From contig JAXDDX010000063.1 in the NCBI GenBank assembly GCA_034670405.1, positions 124,001 to 188,000 of the forward strand: a DNA stretch of 64,000 bases, given 5' to 3'. Shown here in pieces: positions 1 through 54,966 of the stretch. A program made the position numbers and the translations under genes. This DNA comes from Hoplostethus atlanticus (lineage: Eukaryota > Chordata > Actinopteri > Trachichthyiformes > Trachichthyidae). Each line of letters starts with the position of its first letter. The stretch's first letter is position 1. The notes under the pieces are model-generated. The model was not told the DNA's origin. It searched no databases and saw nothing but the letters and a program-made list of their open reading frames with translations.

Positions 1-724
1 GAGGTATGCAAAGAAAGTGTTCACGTAGTTTCTGTAACCATGGCCTGAGTTTCCACAGTTTATCTTGCTTTGCATCATTAGACACAGTGAGGTTGTCCTG
101 AAAGTGAATCAGGGTCAGCAATTTCAGGAATCGATCTCGGGACATCACATCACAAACTGGGGGGTACCTTGTCTCCATCTCCCAATAGGCTCGTACATTG
201 GACATGTTTACTAACCCCATGTGCATGTACATGCCCAGAATTTGCTCAATTTCCTTGGCAGTTGCGTTCACTGGCTTTCCATCTTTCTGCACACTGTACA
301 GGTTTGTTTGTTCTGCAATTTCCTGTAGCATTTCATCAGTTACAAAATGTTTGAAATACATGTATTGTGTCCAGTCAAGTCTCTCTTCTGAGTCCTCTTC
401 AACACATTCACCGAATTCAACAGCTGGAGGTTTAAATTGTTTTTTTTCCCACTGATACTCTTTCCTTTTCACTTTGCCCCTTGCTGACTGCTTTGTTGTG
501 TCCTGTGTTGTTGTTGGGCCCACATCTTCTGAGCTTGTCTGGTCGACAGTTTCATCTCGCAAGTCTTCCTCATCACTACTCTCTGAGTTTCCCTCAGTAC
601 ATGTTGCAGGAGGAGCCCAGTCCTCATCGTCATCATCATCATCTTCATCTAACTCCTCCATGTCACTTTTATTGCCGTCCAGTATCATGTCCAGGACATC
701 TTGCACGCTGTACTTTCTTGTCAT
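1..724 (-). CDS. piggyBac transposase-like (PGBD-like) protein, N-terminal part, runs off window
   Basis: Reading the minus strand from an ATG at 722-724 gives 241 uninterrupted residues to the window edge. The N-terminus (MTRKYSVQDVLDMILDG) is followed by an acidic run (about residues 22-31, mostly D/E), a Lys/Arg-rich patch and then the start of a piggyBac transposase fold (YFKHFVTDEMLQEIAEQTNLY, and later DRFLKLLTLIHFQDN). Family members are about 550-600 residues, so under half is present and the catalytic Asp residues lie outside the window. The ATG directly follows TTTTTTAG, which reads as a 3' splice site, and a good donor (AAG|GTAAGA) lies upstream near 1200, so a 5' untranslated exon is plausible. 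It may be a domesticated pgbd gene or a spliced transposon; the sequence here cannot decide. Confidence 0.75.
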   Translation of the reverse strand, partial: MTRKYSVQDVLDMILDGNKSDMEELDEDDDDDDEDWAPPATCTEGNSESSDEEDLRDETVDQTSSEDVGPTTTQDTTKQSARGKVKRKEYQWEKKQFKPPAVEFGECVEEDSEERLDWTQYMYFKHFVTDEMLQEIAEQTNLYSVQKDGKPVNATAKEIEQILGMYMHMGLVNMSNVRAYWEMETRYPPVCDVMSRDRFLKLLTLIHFQDNLTVSNDAKQDKLWKLRPWLQKLREHFLCIP

Positions 725-9899: not shown

Positions 9900-10316
9900 G
9901 AGTTTGCCTTATGGGCTATGCTTGTGCGCGAGCACTGAAAATTCAACGATGCACCTATCAGCTGCGGCTCCGCCCCCAAGCACCTGTATGTAATGCCGTG
10001 TCTCCTGGCATTCGTCCTCCTCTTTCTTTCAGCGAACACCTAAGCTAAAAGAGTATGAATTCCTTGATCAGCGAAACAACGGCCCTTTTCAGAGCCAAGA
10101 GTTGTAATTCCTGCCCGGCGGATCTTCTGCCGGAGGACGGCCACTCTTCATGCTTCCGCTGCCTCGAGACGGAGCATGCTAGAACCGCTGTGGAAAGAAC
10201 GGCGGACTGTGCCGCTTGCCTTTTCCCTTCCCAGGGATATGCTCACGGCTAGATACCGCCACTTCGTTCCCGATACCCCTCCGCAGGAGGCACTTGGCAT
10301 TTTTGATATTTTTTAT
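9900..10316 (+). mobile_element. DIRS retrotransposon, 5' part: inverted terminal repeat and gag start
   Basis: 9905-10010 is the inverse of 17313-17412 (shared words TTTTCAGTGCTCGCGC, GATAGGTGCATTG, CTTGGGGGCGGAG), as expected for DIRS terminal inverted repeats. An ATG at 10055 opens a gag-like frame with a Cys/His cluster (CNSCPADLLPEDGHSSCFRC) typical of DIRS Gag N-termini; a frame shift near 10225 breaks it. The element is split here by the insertion that carries the P2X7-like and THAP genes and resumes near 15.7 kb. Confidence 0.7.
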
Positions 10317-10451
10317 AGAGGCCCTGTACTTCTCAGTCCACATCTTGCCAGTACTTAGATACACCATTACATATGTATTACAACGTATGCCCTACATTGT
10401 TTGGTATACTGTAGTCATATTGAGTGAATTTTCTGCACTACTTCTCAACAG

Positions 10452-11466
10452 GTGTACTTGTAGAAATTGTGCCACAATGCCAAGTGAAAGAGAAAACGTG
10501 TGCTGCAGGGAGATCCAAACGGTGACTTGTGATAAAAGACATTCTATCTTCCGTGTAATCAATGTAGTGTTTATGAAGTTTGGAAAATCCCTGTAGACTT
10601 ACCGTTTCTCACTCAATAGGTTCTTCGGCGAATGAATGAAATCCGAGAACCACCTACATGTATGGTGGATCATAGGGGTTTCGGCAATGTTTGCTTGGAC
10701 ATGTTCGTCCTCCAAATGTCAGCTAACCGGTATAGAGCAGACTATGGGCGTTTACAGCATAGGCAAATGGCGAAGTAAGTATTTTATAAGTTATTCTATG
10801 CATGACACAATTTCTCTAATAATCATAACCAATGGATAATACTGTGCATGACAATAAAAATGAGGACAATAAGTGTTTGCATTCGGGGTTTATTTATTTC
10901 ACGTCAGCAGAAATTACATTGTAAACCGATCAATAGCAAACAAAACGTGTTAAGATGAAGTACTTCTCTAATTTTAGCTGTACTGTTTTAGCTGCATGTA
11001 GCCCATCATCAAAATTGAATATATGAAGTATTATAACTATCTAGTGTTCATGTGCTCACACATGTTCTCTCTTGATAAGTTCAGGGTAAAGACATCTGTC
11101 TTTAATAATTGGTTCCATTGATTATTACATTGTCTACAGGAGCATGACAATTTGTCCTCTTTGATATTTTGAAATAATTATTAGATTCCTATAACCCACC
11201 TAACTCCGACCAGACCACACTCACAAAGGTAGAAAAAAAAAACTTCCAACAGAAACAATACTCTAATCAGAATTTTTTTTTTTATTCACACGTACCCTCT
11301 TCTCAGTCGTTACAGGTTCATAGCATACAGATGCTTCGTCTGGTGGTGCTGGGGCTACCTAGGCCGCAGGGTCAGGGTTGTTTTACCGGCCTGTGTGGTG
11401 CAGCGGATACGCTGTGAATTCCCTGACACCAGGGGCGAGTACACGGGGTTCAGACCGGCCCTTTGA
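10452..11466 (+). CDS. P2X7 C-terminal ballast-domain (P2RX7_C-like) protein, three exons, 5' exon(s) not identified
   Basis: Exons 10452-10521, 10620-10774 and 11316-11466 join in frame across canonical AG/GT sites (CTCAACAG|, ACG|GTGACT; CAATAG|, GAA|GTAAGT; GTTACAG|) and end at TGA 11464-11466. The product of about 125 residues has the Zn-binding Cys pattern of the P2X7 receptor's cytoplasmic ballast: CTCRNC, then MPSERENVCC, PPTCMVDHRGFGNVCL, AYRCFVWWCWGYLGRR, RVRVVLPACVV and a closing GEYTGFRPAL. No P2X channel or transmembrane segment precedes it, so this is a stand-alone domain. Frames are open in all three exons. Polyadenylation and the first exon are unassigned; an in-frame ATG exists at 10389 but lies across the proposed acceptor. 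Its position tail to tail with a transposase suggests a transposon accessory protein; function unknown. Confidence 0.7.
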
Positions 11467-11876
11467 CTGAAGCAGGACACAAAGTAACCTGTAAAGTTTA
11501 AAAAATGTCACTACCTCAATTTTTCATTTGTTGTGTTTCAATTGTACTAGGAATTAAGAATAATAAATGGGTGTGTGTGTTAAATATATGGAAAGTTGTG
11601 TCTGTGTTCACTGGCTTGGATGTGCACTCTCCGTTCTTGGCCTTGGGAAACTTCCGCGTGAAGACCGGGTCACCAGCAGATGTTGTGGCTTGGGGATGGT
11701 CAGCATCTTCAACCCAACCCAACACATACAAAGCTGGGGTGCATAAAAGAAGAGAAATACATGTTATTTCTCACCACTCAAGGAAAAGTGTTAGCACTTG
11801 TGTGACGCTGCGTATATGCTGCAAATTACCTGATGCCGAAGGCATGTACATGGGGTTCAGACCGCGTCTTTATTGA
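11380..11876. repeat. diverged tandem duplicate of the overlapping 3' ends of the two convergent genes
   Basis: 11440-11815 repeats, with roughly one in five bases changed, material from 11857-12640 of the transposase gene: a copy of exon 9 (minus, about 11590-11710), a truncated copy of exon 10 and a piece of the intron/exon 8 start (TACAAAGCTGGGGTGC). The block for most of exon 8 is missing from the copy. Conversely, 11800-11876 on plus is a second copy of the P2RX7_C-like C-terminus (PDAEGMYMGFRPRLY, stop 11874-11876). Each unit keeps the same antisense overlap of the two stop codons. Confidence 0.7.
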
Positions 11877-14800
11877 AGCGGGACACGAAGGCTGCAATTA
11901 CATCCTCCTTTGCTGGTCTCTCGTACTGGGCACATAGGTCGTCTGGGACAGGGATCTTCAACAATTCATTAGAATATGGCTGAGGGTCCTGTAACACGTA
12001 CTCAAACAGGAGGTCCATCAGCTCATCTGTATAACCTGTATAGTAAAGTAAAGTTATGAAAATGCCACTACCTCAATTTTCCATATGTTGTTGCCTTTCA
12101 ATTGTTCTACATAGCAGTTGTGTATTTAGAATAATAAATAGGTGTGCGTTAAACATACGGAAAGTTGTGTCCGTCTTCACTGGCTTTGCCGTGCACTCTC
12201 CCTTCTTGAACTTGGGAAACTGCACTTTGAAGAGTGGGTCACCAGAACGTGTTGTGGCTTGGGGACGGTTAGCATTTTCATTGAAATGCATGGCAGACAG
12301 GTAAAGCCTAAAAAAATAATAATAATTAAAAAAAAGGAATAATTACAGTACTTGCATAGAGCACATATATAAAGATGTGTTGAGACAGTGTAATATCTTG
12401 TTTACCTGCACAGCATTCCCAGAAATGGAAAGACAACATTTTTTGGAGCAAAGCGCAGGATGACACTATGGTAAGACTCCAGCGCTGAGGTCTGATGGTG
12501 AGGGCTCAGCTTCTCCACATCCTTTAGGACTCTCTTGTTTGTTAGTGCCTTCTCAAGCTTATACAAAGCTGGGGTGCCTAAAAGAAGAAAAGTACATCTT
12601 ATTTCTTGCCACTTATGGAAAAGTGTTAGCAATTCTGTAAAAATTTTTCAACATACATCAACTATTATATCATAAATGTAAAACTCCTAATCAAAGAATA
12701 ACATAGGGTGTAATAAGGAAACCTGAACAAGCCCGTAAAACACGTTAGTGCAATGCTTGAGTACACACCTGCTGTCAACCATTTGCTCTTGTCTCTTGAA
12801 ATGCGTTCTGGATGCAGACACTTTGGGAAGATGGGGTCTTCATGGTTGTGGATATCTTGCACGTGGTTGACAATTGATGTCCACTTTGCCACCCTCTCTG
12901 GCCCAGTTGTAGAAGAAGCTACAGTCCAGTAGATGTGGTTTTTGATACTGCGCTGCCACTTCTTCAACTGCGCACAGTCCTTGTCTTTGGAAATCTTTTC
13001 CAGTCGCTTAGACAGGCCTAATAATGTAGAAAGTAAAATTTAGTGCAACTCCTTACCTATTTTAATAAGATGTTGAAGACTTACATGGTGGACAATGCAA
13101 AATTAGAAATCGTACCAAGTTCAACTATCAACTACAACCAAATGGCAAAGACCATTACAATACCTTTCTCCATATGCCAGACGTCGTAAAACTGTGTGAT
13201 CTTCAGCTCCCTTAGGAATTTCTGGATCTGCGGGTGACGATCGGTGACAATGCAGTCCAGGGTCACACCACCTGCCTCCAAGAGTGCAAGGCTTCTTTTC
13301 AGGCCCTCCTTCTCCATGTGGTAACTTCCACCCACCTCATTGCTCTGTTTGGAAGACAAGGATTTAAAAAATAAAAATGTAGCATTATGAACATATCATA
13401 ATCTACTGTAACCGATAATGACATTGTAATATGTTGTACTACTGACATTTGTTTTTAAACAAAGTTTCACTGGTTGAATTGGCAAGTGTTCATATGTACT
13501 CACTAACCTGCACAAGCTGGATATCAATGATGGTGTTACTCTTCAGGTCCATCATGGCTGCCAAACTTGGCAGAGTGGCCTGTGTATGGAGAAGGTTTGA
13601 CGACAAAACACATCATTCATAGTTTGTGTGTTTTTCAAGCTGGTACCAGCCCCCCGCATACAAAAACTAATAGATAATACTATATGATAAAACAATGTGA
13701 ATAGGTTGAGACAGGAAACTACCTGGTGAGTCAGCCCTCATGTCACCACCAACAATGACCTTCTCCTCCTGGCTGAGCCGCTGCAACATGGCCTCCTGTC
13801 CCTTCTTCCACTTATACACAATAGCCGGCTCGAGGTACGTCCTGGCATGCCTTCGGAATGTGTCGTACATTCACATGCATTGCCCTGAAAACCTGGTGGA
13901 CAGTAAGATAGATATTTAGAACAGTTGCCCACAAAATATGTCCGATACAAATATTTACGAGTGCAAAGTAACTTGCTTTCAACATACCTTCTCGAGTTTG
14001 CTATAAGAAGCACCACTGAAATATATGGCTGCGGAAAGTTGTAGGTTCCCAGCAGGTGTGCTGCCAACAATGGGCTGGCTCTTCCAATGTCTGGTAAACT
14101 GACAATGGGGGCACAGCTGATCAACTGCCAAGAATGTACCAAGCCTTCTTGAGCGGACCTGACATGCCCTCTGGCACACAGGGCACATGTCAAACAGCTC
14201 CATGAGGCAGGTCTCATACACAATGTATTTTGGGATGTTTTGGATGGGAGTTGAGTCTGGCCTGCTTTTCAAAAATATGGAAGAACAGAAAACGATAAGC
14301 AACAACACACAATCTACTTTATCTAATGTGCAGGGCTAATGGAAAATTACTCACGACAGATTTGATGACTCCGTAAAGGTAGTAATAGAATCAGCAGGGT
14401 TATATGTAGTCATGTGGCTCAGGAACCTCCATAGAGATGTCCTCATCCTCCTCGCTAAGGTCTAGACGAGGTCTCTTGGCTGGTCTCGTGATCTTAATAG
14501 GTGTTGAGGTAATGAAAGGTTGTGCAGTGAAGGGGTCGGTGGTGTTGCCAACTCCGAAGTCTCGGCAGGAAACTGTTGCCTGGGAACCTTTTATGCAGTC
14601 TTTCATTTCTACAAGCCATACTATAATGAAAACTGTAGGCTTTTGTTTAGCCACCCCCCTTTGTTAGAAGGCTTTACAGTTTACAACAGCCAAGTCGCCC
14701 CCACCCCCAAGCGCGATTGTACTAATGGTGGCTAAACTTTACCAAGCGGACACGACAGACTTATAAAACAGACACTGGTCCCAACAAATAACTTTAACAT

Positions 14801-15279
14801 GAGCCCTGACTCCAACCAATAACTTTAAAAGATGTGTCCTGACTCCAGCTTTAGTTTTCTTACTTCTTCTTACACACCCAACAAGCCTGTAGCTAACGTT
14901 AGCCCCGCTAGCTCGTTAGCTAACCAGCAGTCAAATATACTAACCAGACTAACTTGCAAATGATATCAAAACATGGTGACACTTACCGGTTCCAAGTTTG
15001 CAGATGGGTCACGTAGAGTGGGAACTGCTCCATCTTTAAGCTTCAATTACTTGATAGTCCTGTTGTGAACTGGCCATAGTTGCTGAAGCAGTCCGGCGTG
15101 AAGTGGTTATCACACACAAACAAAGCTGGGCTAACTGTAGCCGGGACGTCGCCGTTAAAAATAAAATTAATCCACTCTGTCCTGGCATTTTCGTGTGTTG
15201 GGATTCTGTGCAGGGATCTATGTTGCTGGCTGCATCCTAAAACAGAACAACTCTTGCGTTGGGCTCTTGCAGTAGACAT
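11857..15279 (-). pseudogene. THAP-DDE transposase (Kolobok-like), ten exons, frameshifted
   Basis: Minus-strand exons with canonical splice sites: 15279-14997, 14620-14355, 14271-13988, 13892-13733, 13579-13508, 13344-13164, 13017-12769, 12577-12406, 12307-12159 and 12035-11857, about 665 residues. Exon 1 (ATG 15277-15279) is a THAP zinc finger: CSVLGC ... CDNHF, followed by AVPT. Exon 3 has a CPVC...CPHC cluster (MCPVCQRACQ; LCPHCQ). The catalytic core reads GGDMRADSPG (end exon 4), CIVTDRHPQ (exon 6) and SALESYHSV (exon 8), candidate D, D and E. Single-base frame breaks occur near 15047 in exon 1, near 14400 in exon 2, near 13865 in exon 4 and in exon 5, so it is probably inactive, although exons 3, 6, 7, 8, 9 and 10 are open. 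Kolobok assignment rests on THAP plus this DDE type. Confidence 0.7.
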
Positions 15280-15630
15280 GTTGTTGTTGTAGCTCCAATG
15301 TTCGCAATGTAAAAACAGCGGCGCTGCCGAGAGCTGCATTTTGAGACGACGTAAATGGGAGTGGTTGTTCAACTGGGCGTGGACATGCTCTGAGAGGGGC
15401 TGGACTTGCACCTTATGATGTCCAAAGAAACCATTTTCTGAAACGGGCCGTTTTTCTCCTATCTTTGGCAACGTTTTGGGAAAAAGGAAAATACAGAAAA
15501 ACGGGTTGACTTCCAGATTTCAAATTTTCTCAGCTGCTTAGGGAAGTAATTTCCTGTGGAACATATATAAGCGCTAGGAATAAACGGCTTTCCATAATAT
15601 GGGCCCTTTAAAAAAAAAAAAAAAAAAAAG

Positions 15631-15704
15631 TGCGGTACCACCGCATACCGCGGTGATGAGCCAGATACACACCTGCGGTGGGAAAATTTCAAAACCGCGA
15701 CAGC
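15631..15704. mobile_element. hAT-like terminal fragment
   Basis: Read on minus, it starts AGGGCTGTCGCGGTTTTGAA and continues with ACCGC-rich inverted words, a terminal type I associate with hAT elements. It lies between the poly-A/T tract at 15610-15630 and the resumption of DIRS. The other end is not seen, so the assignment is weak. Confidence 0.35.
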
Positions 15705-16583
15705 CCTAGGCTAGGGGGATACCTTGCCTAGAGACTCCCCTGGCGGCACTTCTCTGTCCATGCGCTGGATGGCGTCCAGACGAGAAACTGCTGCCCCCTT
15801 CCGTCTCCATAGGCAGCTGGCCGTTCTGGCGGACAAGACATATATGTCTGTTCGGCCCAGAGCGCAGCCACTGTCAACAACATCTGCCCTGTCATCATTG
15901 ACAGTTGGGAAGGACCTGATGAGGTGGAGTCGGTGGCGAAGTTTACCGGCGCCAACTCTCACAGAGAGAGAGAGGCACAGAGAGCCATCTGGCTCTCCCA
16001 TGCTTCCATGATCCTTCCTGATCCATGGGCCTCTGTCGCCGGATGGCTTGTTCGGCCCCAGGCTAGACAAGGTTTTGGCCTCCATCCAGGCCATGGGGGA
16101 GGACTGCCCCTTCCCAGAGCGCCATTTTGGGGCAAAAGAGGCACATCGACCCTCAGGTTCCGAGAGCCTGGAGGAAGAGGTCCCGCGGCAGCGCGCCGCC
16201 GTCGAGCCATGAGATAGTCAACGCCCCACCCCCTCCAATGAGGAAACAACGACCCGCCAGTGACCGCCCAGCTGCCAGAGGAGCTCTGGGTCAGCCCAGG
16301 AAGCAGCGGAGGCTGGCTCCTTCCTGGGATCGCCCACCCAAATCATTCATTAAAAAAAAACGTTCAAACAAACGACCTTATATATTCCTAATAACAGCTA
16401 ATTCCTCTCGTCTACGGGTTCCTGATACTATGTCAGGAGAACCCGAGACTCCCCTAATGGTACGAAGGGCTCTACCCTCTCACTCTACCAAGCCATTGAT
16501 ACACTCAGGTCTACGCTTTTCTCCCGAACAGTCGAATGACTGTCTGGGGAAAAGTAAGAGGCTAGAGAAATGTGTGGTGCCCA

Positions 16584-17212: not shown

Positions 17213-17477
17213 GATAGTTATGTACTATAACTCTAGTTCTATGATCGTAGGCAAAGCCGTTTAGTTTCATGCCTGCTGTCCCCTCAATGGTTTGCAGAAA
17301 GAAAATCGTGGAGGACAAATGCCGGGAGACACGACATTACATACAGGCACTTGGGGGCGGAGGCCTGGCTGATAGGTGCATTGTTTAATTTTCAGTGCTC
17401 GCGCTCTCACGCCCATAAGGCAAAGCCTAATCAGCTTTGCCTACGATCATAGAACTAGAGTTATAGTACATAACTAT
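17213..17477. repeat. perfect 45-bp inverted repeat, 175-bp spacer
   Basis: 17213-17257 and 17433-17477 are exact reverse complements (GATAGTTATGTACTATAACT... / ...GTTATAGTACATAACTATC). They lie in the DIRS terminal region and may be parts of its inverted repeat and internal complementary region. Confidence 0.85.
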
Positions 17478-23995: not shown

Positions 23996-26480
23996 TGGCG
24001 GATGTCAACGCGAACGAGGAGGCAGCGGTTGTTGCACAGAGAGCAGCAGGATCGAGTGCTACGTTCAGCATTCAGTCACTGGAGTCCTTCAACTTCTTCA
24101 ACAGTGGGCCTAATGGATATGGAGGTTTGAAAGATTTTGTCTGGCAAGTAATTTGAATGCTAGCTCTGAGGAGAATCAAGTCAACACACTAATATACTGT
24201 ATGGGAGATTCAAGGATTCAAGATTCAAGATTCAAGAACTTTATTTGTCACATACACACACGGGGTGTGTAGTGAAATGAAAAGTGGCAATGCTCAACGG
24301 GAATGTGCAAAAGGCAACAGTACACAGTATTTACAATAAAAAAACAACACAATATTTACAGTATTACAGTAATTACAGTAAGAGCTCTTATATAAAAAAA
24401 ACAACACAATATATACAGTAAGAGCACTTTGGAAATGAAAATATAGTAGTAAGGGAAATTGTATGAATGTAATATACTATAAATTATGTGTAGTCTTTAC
24501 CTAAGTGTGTGTGTGCATAAGAGGGGCAGTGTGTGTGTCTTGGTGGGGGCCCTGGTGAGGTCAGAGTTCACAGTCCTGATGGCCTGAGGAAAGAAACTCC
24601 GTCTCAGTCTCTCTGTTTTGGCAGCGTGACTACGGAGGCGCTTGCCTGACCGCAGCAGCTGAAACAGTCCGTTGTTGGGGTGGTGAGGATCCTTCATGAT
24701 CCTGCAGGCTCTGGTTCTGCACCTCCTGGTGTATAAGTCCTGCAGGGTGGGGAGTGTAATTCCAATAGTGCGCTCGGCCGAACGCACTACTCTCTGCAGA
24801 GCCTTCCTGTCCTGAGCGGAGCTGCTGCCAAACCAGGCAGTGATGCTTCCTGTCAGGATGCTCTCCACAGCTCCAGAGTAGAAGGACTGAAGGATCCTCC
24901 TGGGAGACTTTGAATTTCCTCAGCTGCCTGAGGTGGTAAAGGCGCTGCCTCGCCTTTCTCACCAGAGTGTCAGTGTGTGTGGACCATGTCAGATCTTCGG
25001 TGATGTGGACTCCCAGGTATTTATACCTGCTCACCCTCTCCACAGTATTCCCATTAATCCCCAGTGGTGAGTACGTCCTCTGTTGTTGTGTCCTCCTAAA
25101 GTCCACAATCAGCTCCTTAGTTTTGGTGACATTCAGGAGGAGGCTGTTGTCCTGGCACCAGAGTGACAGATCAGCAACTTCCTCCAGGTAGGCCTTCTCG
25201 TCGTTGTTGGAGATCAGGCCCACCACCACTGTGTCATCCGCAAACTTAATGATGGTGTTGGAGCTGAACCTGGCCACACAGTCATGTGTGTACAGGGAGT
25301 ACAATAGGGGGCTGAGGACGCAACCCTGGGGGGATCCTGTGTTCAGGGTGAGGGGGTTGGAGGTGTGTCTACCCACCCTGACCACCTGGGGCCTGGCGGT
25401 CAGGAAGTCCAGGATCCAGGCACACAGGGGGGTGTTCAGTCCCAGCTCAATCAACTTGCCAGCCAGTCTGGTGGGGACTATGGTATTGAAAGCTGAACTA
25501 TAGTCAATGAACAGCAGTCTCACATAGCCCCCCTTCCGGCTGTCCAGATGAGAGAGTGTGGTGTGCAGTACCTGGGAGACAGCATCATCCGTGGATCTGT
25601 TGGGACGATAAGCAAACTGCAGCGGGTCCATGGAGCAAGGGAGGAAGGCGCAGATGTAGTCCTTAATCAGCCTCTCGAAGCATTTCATGACCACCGAGGT
25701 GAGGGCCACCGGTCGGTAGTCATTCAAGCATGCTGGAGAAGCATTCTTGGGCACAGGGACAATAGTGGATCTCTTGAAGCAGGCGGGGACCACAGACTCA
25801 GCCAGGGAGATGTTGAATATAGTGGTGAACACTGGAGCTAGCTGATTAGCACAGGTCTTCAGTACTCGTCCAGATATGCCATCTGGACCAGCAGATGGCA
25901 GCAGATGAGGCTGAGGATGTTTTGCGTGGGCTAACTCTGACGGAAGGACAAAGGAATACTTACCAAGGAGTGCGCGATGGCTTCCAGAACTTTTTCATTG
26001 TCAAGAAAAACATCATCTATGAGCGGGCTAAATTCAACATGTGCAAAGAAGGAGAAAATGAGACTGTGGACTCTTTTGTCACTGCACTCTATGCACTAGC
26101 AGAACACTGTAGCTACGGAGTGCTACATGATGAGGCTGGTCGTGGGGCTCGTGGACGTGAGGCTGTCAGAACGCATGCAGCTGGACAGAGATCTGACGCT
26201 GGAGAAGACACTAACAATGGCGCAGCAGAGTGAGGAGGTAAAGCGGCAGCAAACAACTCTGCGTGGTGGCACCGGGACAGAGGCAAGTGATCTGTTGATC
26301 TAGCTTCACTGTGTTTAAAGGCAGTAGCAAGAAAGCTAAAATCAAACCTCACCATGCTAATAGCTACCAAGCTAAGCCACACAATGCTCAATTCAGCAAG
26401 GGGAAAAGTGTTCAGTGCCATAAATGCGGCAGCTCTCCATCTCCAAAGCATGATTGCCCTGCCAATGATGCCGTCGCCGA
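23996..26480 (+). pseudogene. Ty3/gypsy Gag, interrupted by LINE-A
   Basis: ATG 23996 opens MADVNANEEAAVVAQRAAGS and continues FSIQSLESFNFF. The frame shifts near 24140 but a matching continuation (NASSEENQVNTLIYCMGD) runs to the LINE insertion at 24208. After 25893 the same protein resumes: [51 protein letters not shown] zinc knuckle (CHKCGSSPSPKHDC) is at about 26417-26460. This is the capsid/nucleocapsid of a Ty3 element. Frame shifts and stops (e.g. near 26235) and the 1.7 kb insertion make it non-functional. Confidence 0.75.
24208..25893 (-). mobile_element. LINE-A (Rex1-like) copy inserted in Ty3 gag
   Basis: 3' tail repeat (TTGAATC)n reads out at 24208-24240. The RT-encoding frame runs from 25832 down to about 24500, with one extra base near 24903 that splits it into two overlapping ORFs. 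RT motifs: [47 protein letters not shown] and the catalytic [10 protein letters not shown]. 5' truncated: the endonuclease and the first RT helices are absent. Very similar to the copies at 41.1-42.4 and 55.0-57.0 kb, which indicates recent spread. Confidence 0.85.
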
Positions 26481-32579: not shown

Positions 32580-33545
32580 CAACAGTGAACCGACACTCAA
32601 GCTGTACTGGGCGGAACAGGCATTCCTCACAGTACAAGATGGACTTTTGTTGAAGGGAACCAGACTCATTATCCCCTCAACAATGAGAAACGACGTGCTC
32701 GCCAAACTGCACCAGGGCGTGGTGAAATGCAGGGTGCGCGCACGATGAGCAATATGGTGGCCTGGGCTGAGTTAGCAGCTAAATGAGTCAGTCCTCAACT
32801 GCCGAACATGCAGCAAAGAGAGACAGAACCACAAAGAGCCGCTGATGTCATCAGAATACCTAGACCGACCATGGCAGAAGTTGGGGGCAGATTTCTTCAT
32901 GCTGGGAAGCAAGACCTACCTGCTGGTAGTGGACTACGCATCAAGGTATGTGGAGATCGCCTAATTAACCCCCACGAGATCAACAGATGTAATTGTGAGC
33001 CAGACAATGGGCCGCAGTTCTCCGGAATGTCCTTTGCAACGTTTGCAGATTCTTATGGCTTCCGCCATATCACAAGCAGCCTGAAATTCCCCCAAAGTAA
33101 TGGTGAAGCTGAATGCGCAGTCAAGACCGTGAAAGATCTTCTGAAGAAGGCAGATGACCCATACCTTGCTCTGCTCGCATACAGAGCCACCCCACTGCAA
33201 AACGGGTACAGTCCAGCTCAACGTCTTATGGGGAGAAGACTTTGCACGGCAGTGCCGACGCTTACAGCTTTACTGGACCCTGCTCTTCCCGATGGAGAAG
33301 CTGTTGCCTTAAAGGAAAAGGAGAGGAGAAAGATGGACAAACGACAATATAACCGGCACCATCGAACAAGAGGCCTCAGCAAGCTCCCACCAGGACAGCA
33401 AGTATGGGTGAGCGACCAGAGAGCACCCGGAACACTGATTGGCAACCACTCGTATCTCGTGGATGGACCTCATGGGACAGTGAGATGCAAGCGTTATCAT
33501 CTCATCCCCATGCAGCTGTGGTGGTTAACAGGAGCAAACCCCAGA
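32580..33545 (+). pseudogene. Ty3/gypsy integrase, 3' part of split pol
   Basis: Starts with the RNase H-integrase linker and zinc-binding region (LYWAEQAFLTVQDGLLLKGT, RNDVLAKLHQG), stops at 32746, and continues in another frame. The catalytic core retains PDNGPQFSGMSFATFADSYG (second Asp) and QSNGEAECAVKTV (Glu), about 33000-33130. Then follow DDPYLALLAYRATPLQNGYSPA and a C-terminal region ending near 33540. The first Asp region is out of frame and a deletion sits near 32965. Not functional. Confidence 0.75.
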
Positions 33546-34446
33546 TCATGTTCCAGGGCAAACACACACACAGCATTACTGGTTTTTATACCAGTGTAAA
33601 GGAAGATACTATAGACTTAATACATTTTATAAACACATTCATCATTAGTGTGCTAGCTTCTGGTGATTTCAGTATTACTGATTATTGATCCACCAATCTA
33701 AATTGTCGCCATCAGACTGTTACTGTAAAGGTCTGGCAGTAATCGGATGCGTGTAAATAGTTTGGATGGAGTTTGACAGCACTTATTAATCAATTAAAAT
33801 AACTGTCTGGCATAGCAGGGATAGAGATTTATTAGTTTTTTAGTTATTTGCACAAAAAAAAGTATAGTTGTAGAAATAAAATGAAACATGATGTGCTGGA
33901 GGAACCAGGAAGCCCAGGGGCTTATAAAGGTGTTCCTCCTAGTAAAACATAACACATTTTAAATGTGAAAATAAAGACAAAAACACAAAAACATCATAGC
34001 CTGGATTGTGATGAAGGTGACTATGCCTCTGTGAGGGTGGGGACAAAAGCTTCCATTGCTCCAGTTCAGTTAGGTCTCCAACCCTGTCTGATATTTAAGA
34101 CTTGGACACAGTCCTGGAGTGTGAAGCTGGGACAGAAGCAACACTGTCATGCAGAGGACTGAGGGGATGCACAGGAATCCTTGTGCAGGGAGTGAGAAGG
34201 GTCCAGCTGCGGCCTTGCAGACCCTACAAACCATGCCTCCTACAAACCACGCCCATTATCATAATTTGTAAGTGGAGTAAAGCAGCTGCAGAGTCCACAC
34301 CACGCCTCCTCCAAAACATGCCCACTTGTACACGTTATAGAAGGTAGCAATTTTAGCAACTATTAAGCAAAGAAATAAGGTGAATGCGCTCATAATTGCG
34401 CTGAAAGTCATATATTGTTGTGGCTCAAACACACAGACTAGGTTAT
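33546..34446. other. no gene recognised
   Basis: The expected Ty3 polypurine tract and 3' LTR were looked for and not found. 34200-34330 holds several degenerate copies of ACAAACCA(C/T)GCC-type words. Confidence 0.35.
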
Positions 34447-34759: not shown

Positions 34760-37700
34760 GGGTTAACTGTTGGCTTTAACTGTTAACTATTTTAACTGTT
34801 TTTCCCCCATATCTACCGAGTTTTACCAGTCTGCTTTTACTTTATCCTCTGGCAGCGGCACCTCTCGATTTGAAAATTACAGTACAGTCCTTCCAATTAA
34901 GACTGTATCTTTCTCCCACCGCGCCCGTCAAATTTCCCTACCGACCCACAGTAAATTACAGCAACTTAATTGAAATTCGACCCACGCATACTGCCATTAA
35001 CATTGATAAAAACTCTAGCAGTATTGAACGCCTCACTGTGGGCTTCATCAATATAAGATCATTGTCAACAAAAGCGTTACTGATCAATGATTTGATTACT
35101 GAACATAGTCTAGACATGATGGGTCTCTGTGAAACCTGGCTAAAGCCAAATGAGTTTCTGTCTCTAATTGAAGCCTCTCCCCCAAACTTTCTTAGTTCTC
35201 AGGTTGCCCGGGAGACGAAAAAAGGAGGGGGTGTTGCCCTGATATTTAACCCTATCCTTAGTCTTACTCCCAACACAAACAACAAATTTACATCCTTCGA
35301 AGTCCTGATTCTGCCCCCTACAGCTACGAATCTCCCGTCATTCTACTTAGCAGTACTTTACCGCCCACCTGGGCCCTATTCGCTCTTCTTAGAAGAGTTC
35401 TTCAATTTCATTTCGGACTTAGTGACCCGAGCTGATAATATTCTCATTATCGGTGATTTTAACATTCACCTGAATAATTCCACCGATCCTCTCAGTAAGG
35501 CCTTCCTAGATCTTATTGATACTTGCGGCCTCACTCAATTTGTTAATGAACCAACCCACCATGGCGGCAACACCCTTGACCTGGTTCTGACCCGTGGCAT
35601 TCCTGTTTCTGCTTTAGTGGTCTCCTCTTATGTGCCCGCCCTATCTGATCACTATCTCATTAAATTTGAAATCAAATTGATCTTCCCACGCCAAAAATGT
35701 GAAGATACTTATATTAGCCGTCGTATTAATGCCACTACGGCCTCGTTACTATCTGAAAAACTGCCCAGTTTTCTCGCACCACTCTCTGGTCATGTTGGCT
35801 CACTCGACAATTTTGCCAACGAACTAAACGCTAGCCTTACCAACGCGCTTGACTCAATCGCCCCGTTAGTCACTAGAAAACACCACGCTAGGAAGTTTGC
35901 ACCGTGGTTTACCCATGACACTCGTGCACTTAAACAAGCCTGTAGAAAACTAGAACGTAAATGGCGATTGACCAAACTCGAAGTCTTCCGGCTTGCCTGG
36001 AATGATAGCTTGCTAAATTATAAATGTGCACTCTCGTCAGCCAAAACTGCACACTTCTCTAGGTTAATCAGTGCAAATAAAAACAACCCAAAGTTTCTAT
36101 TCGACACTGTTGCTAAGCTAACACGGAATCCCTCCCCCTCTGATAGCTTTCTGTTTTCTCCGAATGATTTCATGTCCTTTTTTAGTCAGAAAATCACGCT
36201 GATTAGAGATGAGATCACCAGTACACTCTCCACTGGTGGTGCCATCTCACACCTGAAAAGTCCACTTGGTGTTCCCCGGGCTGAATGTCTTTTCTCACAT
36301 TTTGATTTAGTTTCCTTAGACTCTCTCACCAAGCTAACTCTGTCTTCAAAACCCACGACCTGCATGCTTGACCCTCTACCTGCTAAACTGCTTAAAGAAG
36401 TATTCCCTATCCTAGGACCCTCCATTCTCTATATGATCAATCAGTCGCTCTCCACTGGCACGGTGCCCTCCGCCTTTAAAACGGCCGTGATCAAGCCACT
36501 ACTGAAAAAACCGAACCTTGACCCCGAAGTACTTCAGAACTATAGACCAATCTCAAATCTGCCGTTCCTCTCCAAATTACTTGAACGAACAGTAGCCAGT
36601 CAATTTACAGATTTTTTGTCAAAAAATAACCTGCTTGATCCCTTCCAATCTGGCTTTAGATCCCTTCACTCGACCGAAACTGCACTCACGAGAGTGGTAA
36701 ATGATCTTTTGTTAGCTATTGACTCCAATTCAACCTCAGCACTATTGCTACTTGACCTGAGTGCAGCCTTCGACACAATTGATCATGCGATACTCTTGAA
36801 CCGTCTTGAACATTATATTGGTATCCGGGGATCAGCCCTTTCTTGGTTTAGGTCTTACCTACTTGATAGATCACACCACGTCTTTTACAACAACATGACC
36901 TCAGAGTGTTGCAATATGGACTTTGGTGTCCCACAAGGCTCTGTCCTAGGACCACTGCTATTCTCTATATATATGCTACCACTTGGTGGCATCATTCGCA
37001 AATTTGGCATTAACTTCCATTACTACGCCGATGACACCCAAATTTACATACCAGTCAAACCAACCGATGACACCCAATTCCAAAAACTAGAGGCCTGCCT
37101 ATCAGAGGTCAAATATTGGATGTCCCTAAACTTCCTACTTCTTAATGGCAGCAAAACTGAGATGCTGATTGTGGGACCGGCTAGACATAGACACTTATTT
37201 GAGAATAGTACTCTTAACTTTGATAGTTGTGTAATCTCCCAGAGCCCATACGTTAAAAACCTTGGGGTAAAATTCGACCCTACCCTCTCATTCGAGTTGC
37301 ACATTAAGGAGATCACTAAATCAGCGTTTTATCATCTTCACAATATTGCCAAAATTCGACCTATGCTAACAGAGGCAGACGCAGAAATTTTAGTACATGC
37401 CTTTGTATCATCCAGAATCGATTATTGCAATGTCCTTTTCTCGGGCTTACCTACTGGGCGCACTAAAAAACTACAACTGGTCCAGAATGCTGCTGCCAGA
37501 ATCCTGACCAAAACTAGGAAATTCGACCATATAACTCCCATCCTGTCCTCATTACACTGGCTACCAATTCAGGCCAGGTGTGACTTTAAGGTGCTTTTAC
37601 TTACATATAAATCATTACATGGGATGGCACCGTCCTATTTATCCGATTTGATTAAACCTTATAAACCGCCACGCGCCCTCAGATCTCAGGACGCTGGCTA

Positions 37701-38556
37701 CCTGTCTATCCCAGCAGTCAAAAAGAAAACTGCAGGTAACAGAGCCTTTTCTTACCGGGCTCCCTATCTATGGAACAGTCTGCCTGCCTCAATCAGAGAG
37801 GCAGGCTCTATCGAAGTCTTTAAGTCAAGGCTAAAAACCCATTTATTCTCTCTGTCATTTGACCAGCCTTGAGGGAGTGGCTCAGTCTCTTCTCAGAGTA
37901 AGGCTAGACCAGTTAGCTCATCCTAGATCAGGGTCCTGCCGATGGATACTAGCATCCTGCCTACATGTCCTATTCTCCTGGTCTACCTGCTCCTGTCCAC
38001 TGACGCTGGTCATGTCTGTGTGAGTGAGAGTGTGTGTATGGGTGTGTGTGGGTGAGTCTCCTATCTGTTCCAGGCTGCAGCCCGGCAGAGTTGGCGTCTG
38101 GTTGGTCCCGCCTCCTAGGACGATGCTGACTGAGCGGACGTTGCGTTCTCCTATCTGGGCAGTGTTGGCGCCTGCATGGTCCCCTAGTCCTATGATGACG
38201 CTGACTGAGTTGCCGTTGCTGTGATGCCGCCCCATCAGATCTGGATGTCCCACCAAAATAAACCTTCATATATTGTGTATACGCTGCTTGCCCAAACTCG
38301 GCATCTATTGCACGCCCAACCGTCCTGGTAGGGGGATCCCTCTCTGAGTAGCCCCTCCCAAGGTTTCTCCCAATTTTCCCAGTGAGGGTTTGTGGGAGTT
38401 TTTCCTTGTCCTCTGTGAGGGTCTAAGGCTGGGGGATGTCGTGTACTAACCATTTATTATTTTCACATGTTGGGCACTGTGAAGCCCTAGAGACTGTAAC
38501 GGTGATTAAGGGCTATACAAATAAATGTGATTTGATTTGATTTGATTTAACTTTTC
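34760..38556 (+). mobile_element. L2-clade LINE with intact ORF2
   Basis: Contains one long uninterrupted ORF2 (34870-37872), a 0.68 kb 3' UTR and a (TTTGA)n tail at 38528-38550 preceded by GGGCTATACAAATAAATGTG. The 5' boundary is uncertain, placed where low-information TTAACTG repeats begin. No ORF1 is seen. Confidence 0.75.
34870..37872 (+). CDS. L2-clade LINE ORF2 protein: AP endonuclease + reverse transcriptase, 1000 aa
   Basis: Encodes target-primed reverse transcription. The N-terminal endonuclease (about residues 50-270) shows INIRSLSTKA, MGLCETWLKP (catalytic Glu), LYRPPGPYS, ILIIGDFNIH (Asp/Asn), THHGGNTLDL and LSDHYLIKFE (terminal Asp-His). The RT domain (about 520-800) shows QNYRPISNLPFLSKLLER, DLSAAFDTIDH, FGVPQGSVLGPLLFSIYM and the catalytic YYADDTQIYI. 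The C-terminal part has SSRIDYCNVLFSGLP, LHWLPIQARCDFKVLLLTYK and APYLWNSLPASIREA. No stop or frame shift in 3 kb is notable for this window. The start at 34870 is the first in-frame ATG; an overlapping short frame upstream (34770-34973) may be leader. Confidence 0.85.
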   Translation: MKITVQSFQLRLYLSPTAPVKFPYRPTVNYSNLIEIRPTHTAINIDKNSSSIERLTVGFINIRSLSTKALLINDLITEHSLDMMGLCETWLKPNEFLSLIEASPPNFLSSQVARETKKGGGVALIFNPILSLTPNTNNKFTSFEVLILPPTATNLPSFYLAVLYRPPGPYSLFLEEFFNFISDLVTRADNILIIGDFNIHLNNSTDPLSKAFLDLIDTCGLTQFVNEPTHHGGNTLDLVLTRGIPVSALVVSSYVPALSDHYLIKFEIKLIFPRQKCEDTYISRRINATTASLLSEKLPSFLAPLSGHVGSLDNFANELNASLTNALDSIAPLVTRKHHARKFAPWFTHDTRALKQACRKLERKWRLTKLEVFRLAWNDSLLNYKCALSSAKTAHFSRLISANKNNPKFLFDTVAKLTRNPSPSDSFLFSPNDFMSFFSQKITLIRDEITSTLSTGGAISHLKSPLGVPRAECLFSHFDLVSLDSLTKLTLSSKPTTCMLDPLPAKLLKEVFPILGPSILYMINQSLSTGTVPSAFKTAVIKPLLKKPNLDPEVLQNYRPISNLPFLSKLLERTVASQFTDFLSKNNLLDPFQSGFRSLHSTETALTRVVNDLLLAIDSNSTSALLLLDLSAAFDTIDHAILLNRLEHYIGIRGSALSWFRSYLLDRSHHVFYNNMTSECCNMDFGVPQGSVLGPLLFSIYMLPLGGIIRKFGINFHYYADDTQIYIPVKPTDDTQFQKLEACLSEVKYWMSLNFLLLNGSKTEMLIVGPARHRHLFENSTLNFDSCVISQSPYVKNLGVKFDPTLSFELHIKEITKSAFYHLHNIAKIRPMLTEADAEILVHAFVSSRIDYCNVLFSGLPTGRTKKLQLVQNAAARILTKTRKFDHITPILSSLHWLPIQARCDFKVLLLTYKSLHGMAPSYLSDLIKPYKPPRALRSQDAGYLSIPAVKKKTAGNRAFSYRAPYLWNSLPASIREAGSIEVFKSRLKTHLFSLSFDQP

Positions 38557-40391: not shown

Positions 40392-42709
40392 TCTGACACA
40401 CAAGTGGAGGCACGCATTGCTGCATGTCTGGCAGACATCTCGGAGTGGATGTCGATGCACCACCTGAAGCTCAACCTGGACAAGACTACAACATCTACAA
40501 CATCAGGAGGATTCGCCCCTTCCTCACTGACAAGGCAGCGCAGGTGCTCATCCAGGCTCTTGTCATCTCCCGCCTGGACTACTGCAACTCCATCCTTGCT
40601 GGTGCCCCGGCGTCTGCCATCAGACCTCTGGAGCTTGTTCAGAAAGCTGCAGCTCGTCTGGTGTTCAACCGCCCCAGGTTCTCCCATACAACTACCCTTC
40701 TCCGTTCTCTACACTGGCTCCCTGTAGCAGCTTGCATCCAGTTCAAGACCCTGGTGCTAGCCTATAGGGCAGTGAAAGGAACAGCTCCTTCTTACCTCCA
40801 GGCTATGGTCAAGCCTTACACCCCCGCCCGACCACTTCGCTCTGCTGCCTCGAGGCGACTGGTTGCCCCGTCACTCAGAGGTCCCTGCGGCCGATCTACA
40901 CGGTCACGGCTCTTCTCTGTCCTGGCCCCGCAGTGGTGGAATGAACTCCCCACTGATGTCAGGACAGCAGAGTCGCTGCCCATCTTTCGCCGCAGGCTGA
41001 AAACCCACCTCTTCAGGAAACACTACCCTGACCCTTCCTCTTAGCCCACCACCTCCAGCACAACACACTCTCTCATCTGGACAGCCGGAAGGGGGGCTAT
41101 GTGAGACTGCTGTTCATTGATTATAGTTCAACTTGCCAGACTGGCTGGCAAGTTGATTGAGCTGGGACTGAACACCCCCCTGTGTGCCTGGATCCTGGAC
41201 TTCCTGACCGCCAGGCCCCAGGTGGTCAGGGTGGGCAGACACACCTCCAACCCCCTCACCCTGAACACAGGATCCCCCCAGGGTTGCGTCCTCAGCCCCC
41301 TACTGTACTCCCTGTACACACATGACTGTGTGGCCAGGTTCAGCTCCAACTCCATCATTAAGTTTGCGGATGACACAGTGGTGGTGGGCCTGATCTCCAA
41401 CAACGACGAGAAGGCCTACCTGGAGGAAGTTGCTGATCTGTCACTCTGGTGCCAGGACAACAGCCTCCTCCTGAATGTCACCAAAACTAAGGAGCTGATT
41501 GTGGACTTTAGGAGGACACAACAACAGAGGACGTACGCACCATTGGGGATTAATGGGACTACTGTGGAGAGGGTGAGCAGGTATAAATACCTGGGAGTCC
41601 ACATCTCCGAGGATCTTACATGGTCCTCACACACAGACACTCTGGTGAGAAAGGCAAGGCAGCGCCTTTACCACCTCAGGCAACTGAGGAAATTTAAAGT
41701 CTCCCGGAGGATCCTTCAGTCCTTCTACTCTGGAGCTGTAGAGAGCATCCTGACAGGAAGCATCACTGCCTGGTTTGGCAACAGCTCCGCTCAGGACAGG
41801 AAGGCTCTGCAGAGAGTAGTGCGTTCGGCTGAACGCACTATTGGAACTACACTCCCCACCCTGCAGGACTTATACACCAGGAGGTGCAGAACCAGAGCCT
41901 GCAGGATCATGAAGGATCCTCACCACCCCAACAACGGACTGTTTCAGCTGCTGTGGTCAGGCAAGCGCCTCCGTAGTCATGCTGCCAAAACAGAGAGACT
42001 GAGACGGAGTTTCTTTCCTCAGGCCATCAGGACTGTGAACTCTGACCTCACCAGGGCCCCCACCAAGACACACACACTGCCCCTCTTATGCACACACACA
42101 CTTAGGTAAAGACTACACATAATTTATAATTTATATTATATTATACATACAATTTCCCTTTTCCCCTGTGCTCTTATTGTAAATATTGTGTTGTTTTTTA
42201 TATAGAGCTCTTAAAACTGTGACATTGTAAATATTGTGTTGGTTTATTGTAAATAGTGTGAACCTGTTATTTTGCACATTTCTGCTGAGCATTGCCACTT
42301 TACATTTCACTGCACACCTCGTGTGTGTATGTGACAAATAAACTTCTTGAAATCTTGAAATCTTGCCTATTTGTCGTCAATTATGTGTCTGAGCTCTTGT
42401 TTATTGGCTCTTGTTTATTTGATACACTTATTTGTCTTAGCGCTTGTTTATTTGGTTCACTTATTTGTCTTAGCTCTTGTTTATTTGATTATCTTATTTG
42501 TCTCATTTGTTTAAGATAAAGTAGGTTGCTAACTTATTGCACTCTTAACTTAACACTAGTTATGCTCTTAGTTGCTTGTTTAGGAAGGAAATGCACTTAC
42601 GATTTCTGGTGACTAGTAGTTTTCTTGCCTACCTATGTTGAATGCACTCATTGTAAGTCGCTTTGGATAAAAGCGTCTGCTAAATGACTGTAATGTAATG
42701 TAATGTTAT
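40392..42709 (+). mobile_element. L2-clade LINE nested in LINE-A, itself split
   Basis: L2 sequence occupies 40392-41061 and 42365-42709. The first part encodes the RT thumb/C-terminus (VEARIAACLADISEWMS..., SRLDYCNSILAGAP, TPARPLRSAASRRLVAPS, RRLKTHLFRKHYPDPSS, stop near 41042). The second part is its 3' UTR and TGTAA-repeat tail (GCTTTGGATAAAAGCGTCTG at 42660-42680). It is 5' truncated, and the C-terminal ORF (40424-41044) is open. Confidence 0.8.
41062..42364 (+). mobile_element. LINE-A copy inserted into the nested L2's 3' UTR
   Basis: Open frame 41117-42109 (330 residues) encodes the second half of the [73 protein letters not shown] and HNPNNG-like ends as written ([16 protein letters not shown]). 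A short deletion near 41130 removes the SAFNT region seen in the 55 kb copy. Tail CTTCTTGAAATCTTGAAATC at 42345-42364. Nearly identical to the intact-RT copy at 55-57 kb, so recent. Innermost layer of the three-element nest. Confidence 0.85.
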
Positions 42710-52450: not shown

Positions 52451-54966
52451 CTATGGAAACACAGGAGACAACAGAAGATGGCAAAGTCAGTGGATCCAAG
52501 AGTCCGGATGTAAATCTTTGTAGTGCTAACACCTAATTAACAATGAATTCATCATCATCTCTTCCTTAATTTCCTCCCCAGTGACCAGTGATGTAGTGTT
52601 AAATTAAAAGGTAGGTTAACTATGACCTCCACTTGATGATAATCAGAGGGCAAACAACCCCAAACAAAACTTGAGTATATATATATTTCCAGAAATGTTA
52701 ATTAAGGCTTTTTTTTAAAGGATATATTCATATAACTTACATGAGTTAATATGATGTATACAATTAATTTATATTATAAAGATTCATGTCAGCCTAAAAA
52801 TGTGCATAAAGTAAATATGAGTATGGGTATTCTCACTATCTTCAACATAATGAGAATATTAACATCACAGCTGGAGATTCAGTCCGTATGGAGCAGAATG
52901 ACTTCGTAAAGGATTATTTCAATCTAATTACGTCAAATGTGAACGAATATGAAACAGTGAGAAGGAAATAGCCTGTGTGCACAAAGAAACAGAGAACATA
53001 ACAAGGAAAAAAAAAATTAAAAAAAAAAAAAAGACAAGGCCTAGAGAATGTCATCCAGTTTTAGACAAAAAAAAAAATCAAATAGACACAGACAGATGGG
53101 CAGAGACAGTGTTTATTCCTAGTGTCCAGCCATATTGTGGCTGAGGCTGGCTAATCCACCCCCCAGCCTCCACCCCGAGTCCTGAGCCTATAAATTAGCT
53201 GATTTGCATAGCGGCCCAGTGGCTGAAGTGATTAGAAGTTAATCCCGATTAGTTTTGGACATTGTTATTCACTGTACAACCCCCACCCCCCCCCGCCCTT
53301 CGCTCAGCCCAGTGCTGCATTTGACCTATCTTATCTCACCACGCAGAGCCTAACCCATAATGAATGTGTGTGTGTGTGTGTGTGTCTGAGTGGGAGAGAG
53401 AAAGTGTGTGTGGTGAGGTGCAACCACACCACAAATTCAGAGTGAAATGCATTTTTTAATGTGACCCTGGAGTGGGAAGATAAACAAGGGAACAACATTT
53501 TCAACAGCTCTATAAAATGGTTGGTAATTTGGTCAAATACATTAGACTTTTTTTGCAAGAGTGAGTATGCAGGAAAGAAAGAAAATTCACATGCTTATGT
53601 GAAACTACAGAAATGCAAACTAATGACATCAAATTGCATTTTCCTTGATTTTGAGTGCTCATTACTGAAAACTCATAAAGCAACAGAATAAAACCTGCAA
53701 ATGTTAATTTCAGTAGAATTTCCCTTTAAGGCAAGCAGAGCATCTTGGGACTCTTGGGGAAAAAACAGGATTATCTCTCCTGTCTCACTAACTTTCTCTG
53801 CCATTTTCTAAGGAGGAGTAGATGGAGTAAGGGGAAAATGAACAGGGTCGACCCGGTTGCTACTCCTATTTAATTTCTCGATCTCCCTATTTCCTTCCCT
53901 CTCTAATCTCCCCATTACCTGAAGAAGCATTACAAGGTATTTGGATTGCCTGAGAGGAGAACCAACTGCTTTCTGTGACCAAAGATAAGATTCACAGCAC
54001 TGTCAACACTTGCTTTGGAGTGGCAATCTTTGAGGTGGTGTGTGTGTGTGTGTATAAAGGGTTGAAAGATGATGGAAGAGGGCTCAGCAAAGAGGAGATA
54101 GCTTATGGAGTAGTTTATGGCTGAATTGGGTGTGAGCCAGTGGCGAGGAATCATAAAGGATGGGGATTGGTGGCAGAAGTGGCCAAACACAAAGAATTTG
54201 TTCCCAATTAGGTCAATTAGGTCAATTAAAAATGTCAGGGCGCGAAAAAACAATTTAGTCTCAGGGTATACAATTCAGATTCAAGTGGAATGTCTTGAAT
54301 TAGACTGAAAATGAGAGCAATGCGCTTGTGCTACCTCCCATAAGTGCAAGTCTGCAGCATTTGCCACATTAGAGAATTAAGAAATTGGGCAACACTTTAT
54401 TTGAAGTAGTGCTCATAAGGGACTGAAAACCATCATAAGCACAATATGAGCACACTGTGAGTGCATGATAATCATTATAATCTTAGAATGATATAATAAA
54501 CACAATATGATAAAAAATGGAGGGGCTTGAATATTTTATGGGGCAACGGTATAGTTAATGACAAGATAAAGAAAAGTTTATCTCTGCTTCTAATGTGCTT
54601 ATAATCTGCTGGTAATGCATCGCAGTGCACTTCAGCTATATGATACCAGTTGGTCATACCTGTTGGTGCCACGTCTGTCAGACATTACAAATTGGTGATC
54701 TGATTTGTTATTTTTCTGTTAAAACCTGTGCCATTAATGATTAGATTGGATTCATTCATTCCTTTTCTCTACCCCACTTACTCCTTTTCAAAGTGGCAGG
54801 GGCCTGTCCCAGCATGCATTGGGTGGAAGGCAGGGAGACACACTGTCCATCACAGCCATCCAATGGCCATGTTGAATTCCTTCTCAGTCCAATGTGCGCG
54901 ACGGAAAATCTAAATTATTCATTAATGTTTTTACATACTGTATTTACAAATACAAAGTATTGCAAC
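52451..54966 (-). other. rbfox intron, upstream part; no exon found
   Basis: AT-rich with poly-A runs (52,990-53,080), (TG)n at 53363-53384 and 54038-54054. Searched on minus for Tyr/Ala-rich RBFOX exons; none seen. Confidence 0.5.

Follow-up and report, generated by a model that had tools for sequence, protein, structure and literature searches.

A probable Kol0-type Kolobok transposon remnant with convergent transposase and P2X7 ballast-domain genes in the fish Hoplostethus atlanticus

Kolobok DNA transposons, reportedly first described in Repbase Reports, are the closest described counterparts of a locus that we analyzed in a 64,000-nucleotide stretch of the Hoplostethus atlanticus genome (contig JAXDDX010000063.1, positions 124,001 to 188,000; hereafter the window, whose own coordinates are used throughout). 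The Kol0 families of Kolobok encode a transposase together with KolX, a ballast-fold protein similar to residues 476–595 of human P2X7, with seven conserved cysteines around two zinc ions (Kojima and Bao, 2022, PMC9587614). The same paper describes TTAA duplications and 5'-RR ends for Kolobok, nucleases or helicases kept by other Kolobok lineages, and a KolX-like protein in a few piggyBac families. It also proposes that P2X7 arose when a P2X4-like gene was fused to KolX, and that Nanor is likely a domesticated KolX. Kolobok transposases have often been domesticated in Xenopus (PMC6004289), stand-alone ballast proteins occur across Metazoa, and the ballast of P2X7 is encoded in one exon (Rump, 2020, PMC7016195). 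Here and below, statements about these papers, and about PMC7204232, refer to the portions of their text that were covered.

Here, we report that the locus is very likely a decayed, probably left-truncated Kol0-type Kolobok DNA transposon, in which a transposase gene on the minus strand converges on a KolX gene on the plus strand. Like Kol0, it combines a THAP-type DDE transposase with a KolX protein bearing the P2X7 ballast domain, and has TTAA and AG at its candidate right end; unlike Kol0, the window copy is frameshifted, lacks the N-terminal exon of KolX and a recognised left end, and contains an internal repeat (PMC9587614). Like the XKol Kolobok of Xenopus it has a THAP domain and, by eye, DDE and His/Cys motifs, and the TTAA beside its candidate right end would correspond to the XKol target, as its termini may to the short imperfect terminal repeats of XKol; the XKol transposases are long uninterrupted open reading frames, whereas the window transposase has ten exons (PMC6004289). 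Nanor and other stand-alone ballast (ZCD) proteins likewise have the domain without a channel, but they are presented as host proteins, and the string "transpos" gave no occurrence in the text searched of PMC7016195. The P2X7 receptor has the same ballast domain with seven zinc-site cysteines, in contrast to the window gene, which has no channel part and a ballast split over three exons. A transposase and an accessory gene are also convergent within one element in RAG-like transposons, although both proteins there are unrelated to those of the window (PMC7204232).

An indication that the two genes belong to one element comes from P0008, a protein predicted from a 742-base contig. It runs from the ballast tail GFRPAL, without a stop, into antisense transposase sequence, and 81 residues of its tail are 92.6% identical (E = 1.2e-47) to the plus-strand reading of positions 11889–12131, which covers exon 10 in antisense with the intron next to it. 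P0008 has neither the internal repeat nor the whole of the ballast exon, and therefore represents another, also decayed, copy. Since the ballast tail meets antisense exon 10 in this separate sequence too, one element is favoured over chance neighbours. The suggestion of an earlier note that the ballast domain is a protein of a transposon family thus agrees both with this join and with the published Kol0 pairing, and the bearing on the origin of the P2X7 ballast that it saw is likewise in line with the derivation published there (PMC9587614). In the one genomic copy covered, that of the window, neither of the refuting results named in the note (copies without the ballast exons, element ends between the two genes) was seen. 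The idea has been in print since 2022 and is not new.

The plus-strand gene retains three exons:

10452–10521, plus strand: KolX exon carrying CxCxxC and CC; the N-terminal exon that should precede it is missing (AG acceptor, GT donor, open joined frame, alignment to relatives)
10620–10774, plus strand: KolX middle exon (AG and GT borders, alignment to relatives)
11316–11466, plus strand: KolX last exon with stop (AG acceptor, open to stop, PF20478)

Both introns are GT..AG, and the joined frame of 124 residues is open to the stop; the phase and open frames described for these exons before were found again. In a hidden Markov model search, the joined product scores 42.6 bits with P2RX7_C (PF20478; cut-off 23.5, E = 7.9e-11). 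This is its sole domain in the Pfam scan, the P2X channel domain being absent, which confirms the proposed ballast without a channel. A profile built from six sequences (the plus-strand product and five relatives) found P2X7 chains in the PDB with a best E-value of 3.9e-13, and a protein search with an earlier, 135-residue model of the gene returned eight of eight candidates at E ≤ 0.001 (best 2.4e-36). The ballast match exceeds chance. Stand-alone fish relatives annotated as "P2X purinoceptor 7-like" are up to 56% identical to the product. The AlphaFold model of one relative, P0005, was unusable (mean predicted local distance difference test score of 40.7, from a seven-sequence alignment), and so the ballast fold of KolX rests on sequence similarity. 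The viral_contigs search with KolX gave no confirmed relative.

In the profile alignment to P2X7, seven zinc-site cysteines are present (CxCxxC, CC, C, C). The "full Cys/Trp pattern" claimed earlier therefore stands for the cysteines and not for the first tryptophan, which would need a missing exon. In P0003 and P0005, 43 and 41 residues, respectively, precede the motif CTCGNC, and the final one is Trp; a tblastn search found no such N-terminal exon within the window. The plus-strand gene is incomplete, its N-terminal exon gone, and because a codon is split at 10452, the first Trp codon would be completed by that exon. A first exon ending at 10554 was dropped, as it adds 11 residues absent from six of the seven alignable relatives; P0002 carries an insert at this place. 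In the relative P0002 the predicted frame runs through the site of the first intron, with about 20 extra residues, and may be an unspliced form.

The minus-strand gene spans 15279–11857; its ATG lies at 15279, and the last base of its stop codon is 11857. Unless noted, exons were placed by splice sites and homologue mapping:

14987–15279, minus strand: transposase exon 1, carrying the THAP domain, with a frameshift toward the 3' part (also PF05485)
14355–14587, minus strand: transposase exon 2, frameshifted
13988–14261, minus strand: transposase exon 3
13723–13892, minus strand: transposase exon 4, first presumed catalytic Asp (by eye), frameshifted
13508–13579, minus strand: transposase exon 5, frameshifted
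13164–13344, minus strand: transposase exon 6, second presumed Asp and DxxH motif (by eye)
12769–13017, minus strand: transposase exon 7, His/Cys cluster (by eye)
12406–12577, minus strand: transposase exon 8, presumed catalytic Glu (by eye)
12159–12307, minus strand: transposase exon 9
11857–12035, minus strand: transposase exon 10 with stop

All nine introns are GT..AG, and the Pfam scan places a THAP domain (PF05485, E = 2.3e-9) in exon 1. A query made by joining the in-frame pieces of the window exons was scored against 7989 candidates, of which 507 proteins matched at E ≤ 0.001, the best with 62% identity over 99% of the query; where organism names are given among the 120 matches listed, they are, by reading, those of fishes. 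Searches of genome_contigs and viral_contigs with the transposase gave no confirmed relatives, and the window has no further copy of the element at E ≤ 1e-3, internal repeats aside. By eye, the presumed catalytic D, D, DxxH and E occur in the exons in the order of the Kolobok signature (PMC9587614). Kolobok transposases have a C/DxxH signature and a zinc-finger His/Cys cluster between the second Asp and the Glu; DVWH in exon 6 and the His/Cys cluster in exon 7, likewise read by eye, may correspond to these. The intact homologue P0009 has THAP plus a Mutator-like transposase domain above the cut-off (30 bits). When the window frames are mapped on P0009, the reading frame shifts once in each of exons 1, 2, 4 and 5, where P0009 is continuous. 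The transposase is a pseudogene with four frameshifts, and the copy is most likely inert, its present frame giving no intact enzyme. The ten exons of the THAP-DDE gene of the earlier note are thus upheld; the gene is not intact.

An internal repeat lies where the two genes meet:

11392–11803, no strand: internal repeat unit 1, with the KolX tail and what is left of exon 9 and of the border of exon 8 of the transposase; exon 10 has no counterpart here (BLAST self-comparison)
11799–12638, no strand: internal repeat unit 2, with a degenerate KolX tail and transposase exons 10, 9 and 8 (BLAST self-comparison)
11799–11876, plus strand: degenerate second KolX tail within repeat unit 2, overlapping the transposase end (11857) by 20 nucleotides

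The reported overlap of the two genes' 3' coding ends does not hold for the intact ends, which lie apart (the ballast stop ends at 11466, the transposase stop at 11857); only the worn second tail overlaps. The matching pieces of the two units are 75–87% identical in BLAST. This piecewise identity would be old for a duplication specific to this copy, and is the basis for a possible, if doubtful, reading of the repeat as the place where two related Kolobok copies were joined into a hybrid, one supplying KolX and the other the transposase, instead of a tandem duplication. Yet in P0008, which is free of the repeat, the ballast tail is like that of unit 1 and the antisense exon 10 like that of unit 2, as would be expected of two units with an origin in one element.

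It is very improbable that the genes are chance neighbours, a transposase remnant having landed beside a Nanor-like host gene for a ballast protein. Such a reading could draw on the missing left end, on the coverage of a single genomic copy, and on database matches to KolX and to the transposase that come without demonstrated adjacency in any named genome, but P0008 unites both genes in a separate sequence, the internal repeat covers the ends of both, and their pairing is in print for Kol0 (PMC9587614).

Several observations weigh against assigning the locus to a single Kol0-type element. The genomic DNA analyzed is that of a single copy, the one in the window. A possible second join, in P0004 (ballast part plus a tail matching 11766–12047 at E = 2e-9), has a tail that is not significant on its own (E = 0.46). 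The transposase pieces of the window score 16.4 bits with the Mutator-like Pfam domain, below its cut-off of 26.5, and the filing under Kol0 is by the KolX gene and the candidate right end. Finally, no left terminus was found: there is no TTAA in 10200–10460, and the best candidate was rejected as no better than chance, since 2305 of the 42648 overlapping segments of the window score at least as high.

As this terminus was not found and the N-terminal KolX exon is also gone, we infer that the left end of the Kolobok element was deleted. On the other side there is one candidate:

15588–15611, minus strand: candidate right end, AGGGCCC reading inward from 15607 beside TTAA at 15608–15611 (sequence reading; one copy in the window)

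The right terminus would start with AG, which fits the 5'-RR ... YY-3' termini, with terminal inverted repeats, of the Kolobok superfamily, and 15607/15608 is a plausible boundary of the element; no second copy of this end occurs within the window. Next to it, 15628–15710 resembles, by eye, one half of a miniature element of hAT type, with no second copy at a convincing score in the window. An inverted repeat (9903–10037 and 17290–17424, 115 of 138 positions identical) brackets the Kolobok copy and perhaps marks the ends of a DIRS-like retroelement hosting the insertion. The flanks were also tried as one retroelement open reading frame split by the insertion; the protein search with the joined pieces gave 904 candidates, none at E ≤ 0.001, and the host element is unproven.

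It is very unlikely, too, that the transposon acquired its ballast from host P2RX7 instead of the reverse: the P2X7 ballast lies in one exon, whereas introns fall within the ballast of the window gene, and stand-alone ballast proteins occur across Metazoa (PMC7016195). Least probable is a host gene in the making, with the fish keeping the ballast gene while the transposase decays, a reading to which the three open plus-strand exons, the proposed domestication of KolX as Nanor (PMC9587614) and the frequent domestication of Kolobok transposases in Xenopus (PMC6004289) would lend themselves, but for which the window offers neither the N-terminal exon nor the start that it would hold.

On the preferred reading, the intact Kolobok element would have encoded a THAP-DDE cut-and-paste transposase, predicted to move the element into TTAA, and KolX, a small protein that binds zinc through the P2X7 ballast domain. 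Because other Kolobok lineages keep accessory proteins (nucleases, helicases), we lean toward KolX acting together with the transposase, as an accessory or a regulator, and being a zinc-stabilised protein kept because transposition is helped or regulated by it. The two coding ends would meet, or overlap in antisense, where the element is intact. The portions of the text of PMC9587614 that were covered do not say how the two Kol0 genes are oriented to each other or whether they overlap.

We examined the transposase tails of 120 homologues for traces of such an overlap. A recognisable [RKQH]F tail ends 46 of them, and 39 of the 46 have five residues after the Phe; the comparison excludes the 74 without the tail and the seven in which its length differs. 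Read in the register that the second ballast tail of the window has, the P0003 tail FRPPLD-stop predicts a transposase tail F-[NS]-[LPQR]-[AEGKMRTV]-[AEGV]-[AV]-stop. The 39 tails, which are mutually related and come from different copies than the ballast tails, fit at positions 1 to 5 in 31, 37, 37, 13 and 37 cases, and at position 4, 23 of them fit instead the prediction from a ballast-tail Ala (FRPA..). Other ballast tails count against overlap. From FRPPID of P0005, position 3 should be a stop or one of L, S and W (2 of 39 fit); FKLPPLD of P0001 predicts six residues after the Phe (1 of 46); FRPAL-stop of the window and P0002 predicts four (none seen); and from FRPRLY, the second tail in the window, position 2 should be one of I, K, R and T (13 of 39). 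This mixed evidence is suggestive of overlapping convergent coding ends in intact elements of part of the family. More tentatively, and at somewhat less than even chances, the last codons may overlap in antisense by about 20 nucleotides in this fish Kolobok family, in which case the tail of the ballast (GFRP..) and that of the transposase (RFNQ..V) would constrain each other.

Other mobile elements occur elsewhere in the window. The N-terminal part of a piggyBac-type transposase (2–724, minus strand; DDE_Tnp_1_7, E = 9.8e-23) continues beyond the window edge, and no KolX-like protein was seen with it. An uninterrupted long interspersed nuclear element (LINE) frame of 1030 residues, with endonuclease and reverse transcriptase domains, lies at 34780–37872 (plus strand). 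Three very similar reverse-transcriptase frames belong to one LINE family: 24630–25994 (minus strand) and 54876–56732 (plus strand), identified by Pfam (RVT_1, ALKBH8_N match), and 41105–42109 (plus strand), identified by eye. A 270-residue open frame at 32787–33599 (plus strand) resembles a Gypsy integrase by eye and has no Pfam match at E ≤ 0.001.

The Hoplostethus copy is a further readable example of the class of element thought to have supplied the P2X7 ballast, and adds detail, not a new idea. If the antisense overlap is true, such a lock would hold the transposase and KolX together over long evolution, and would explain how KolX stayed beside a DNA-cutting enzyme, available for fusion to a host gene such as that of a P2X4-like receptor. 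Were the 3' overlap general, the long association of KolX with the transposase would have a structural explanation.

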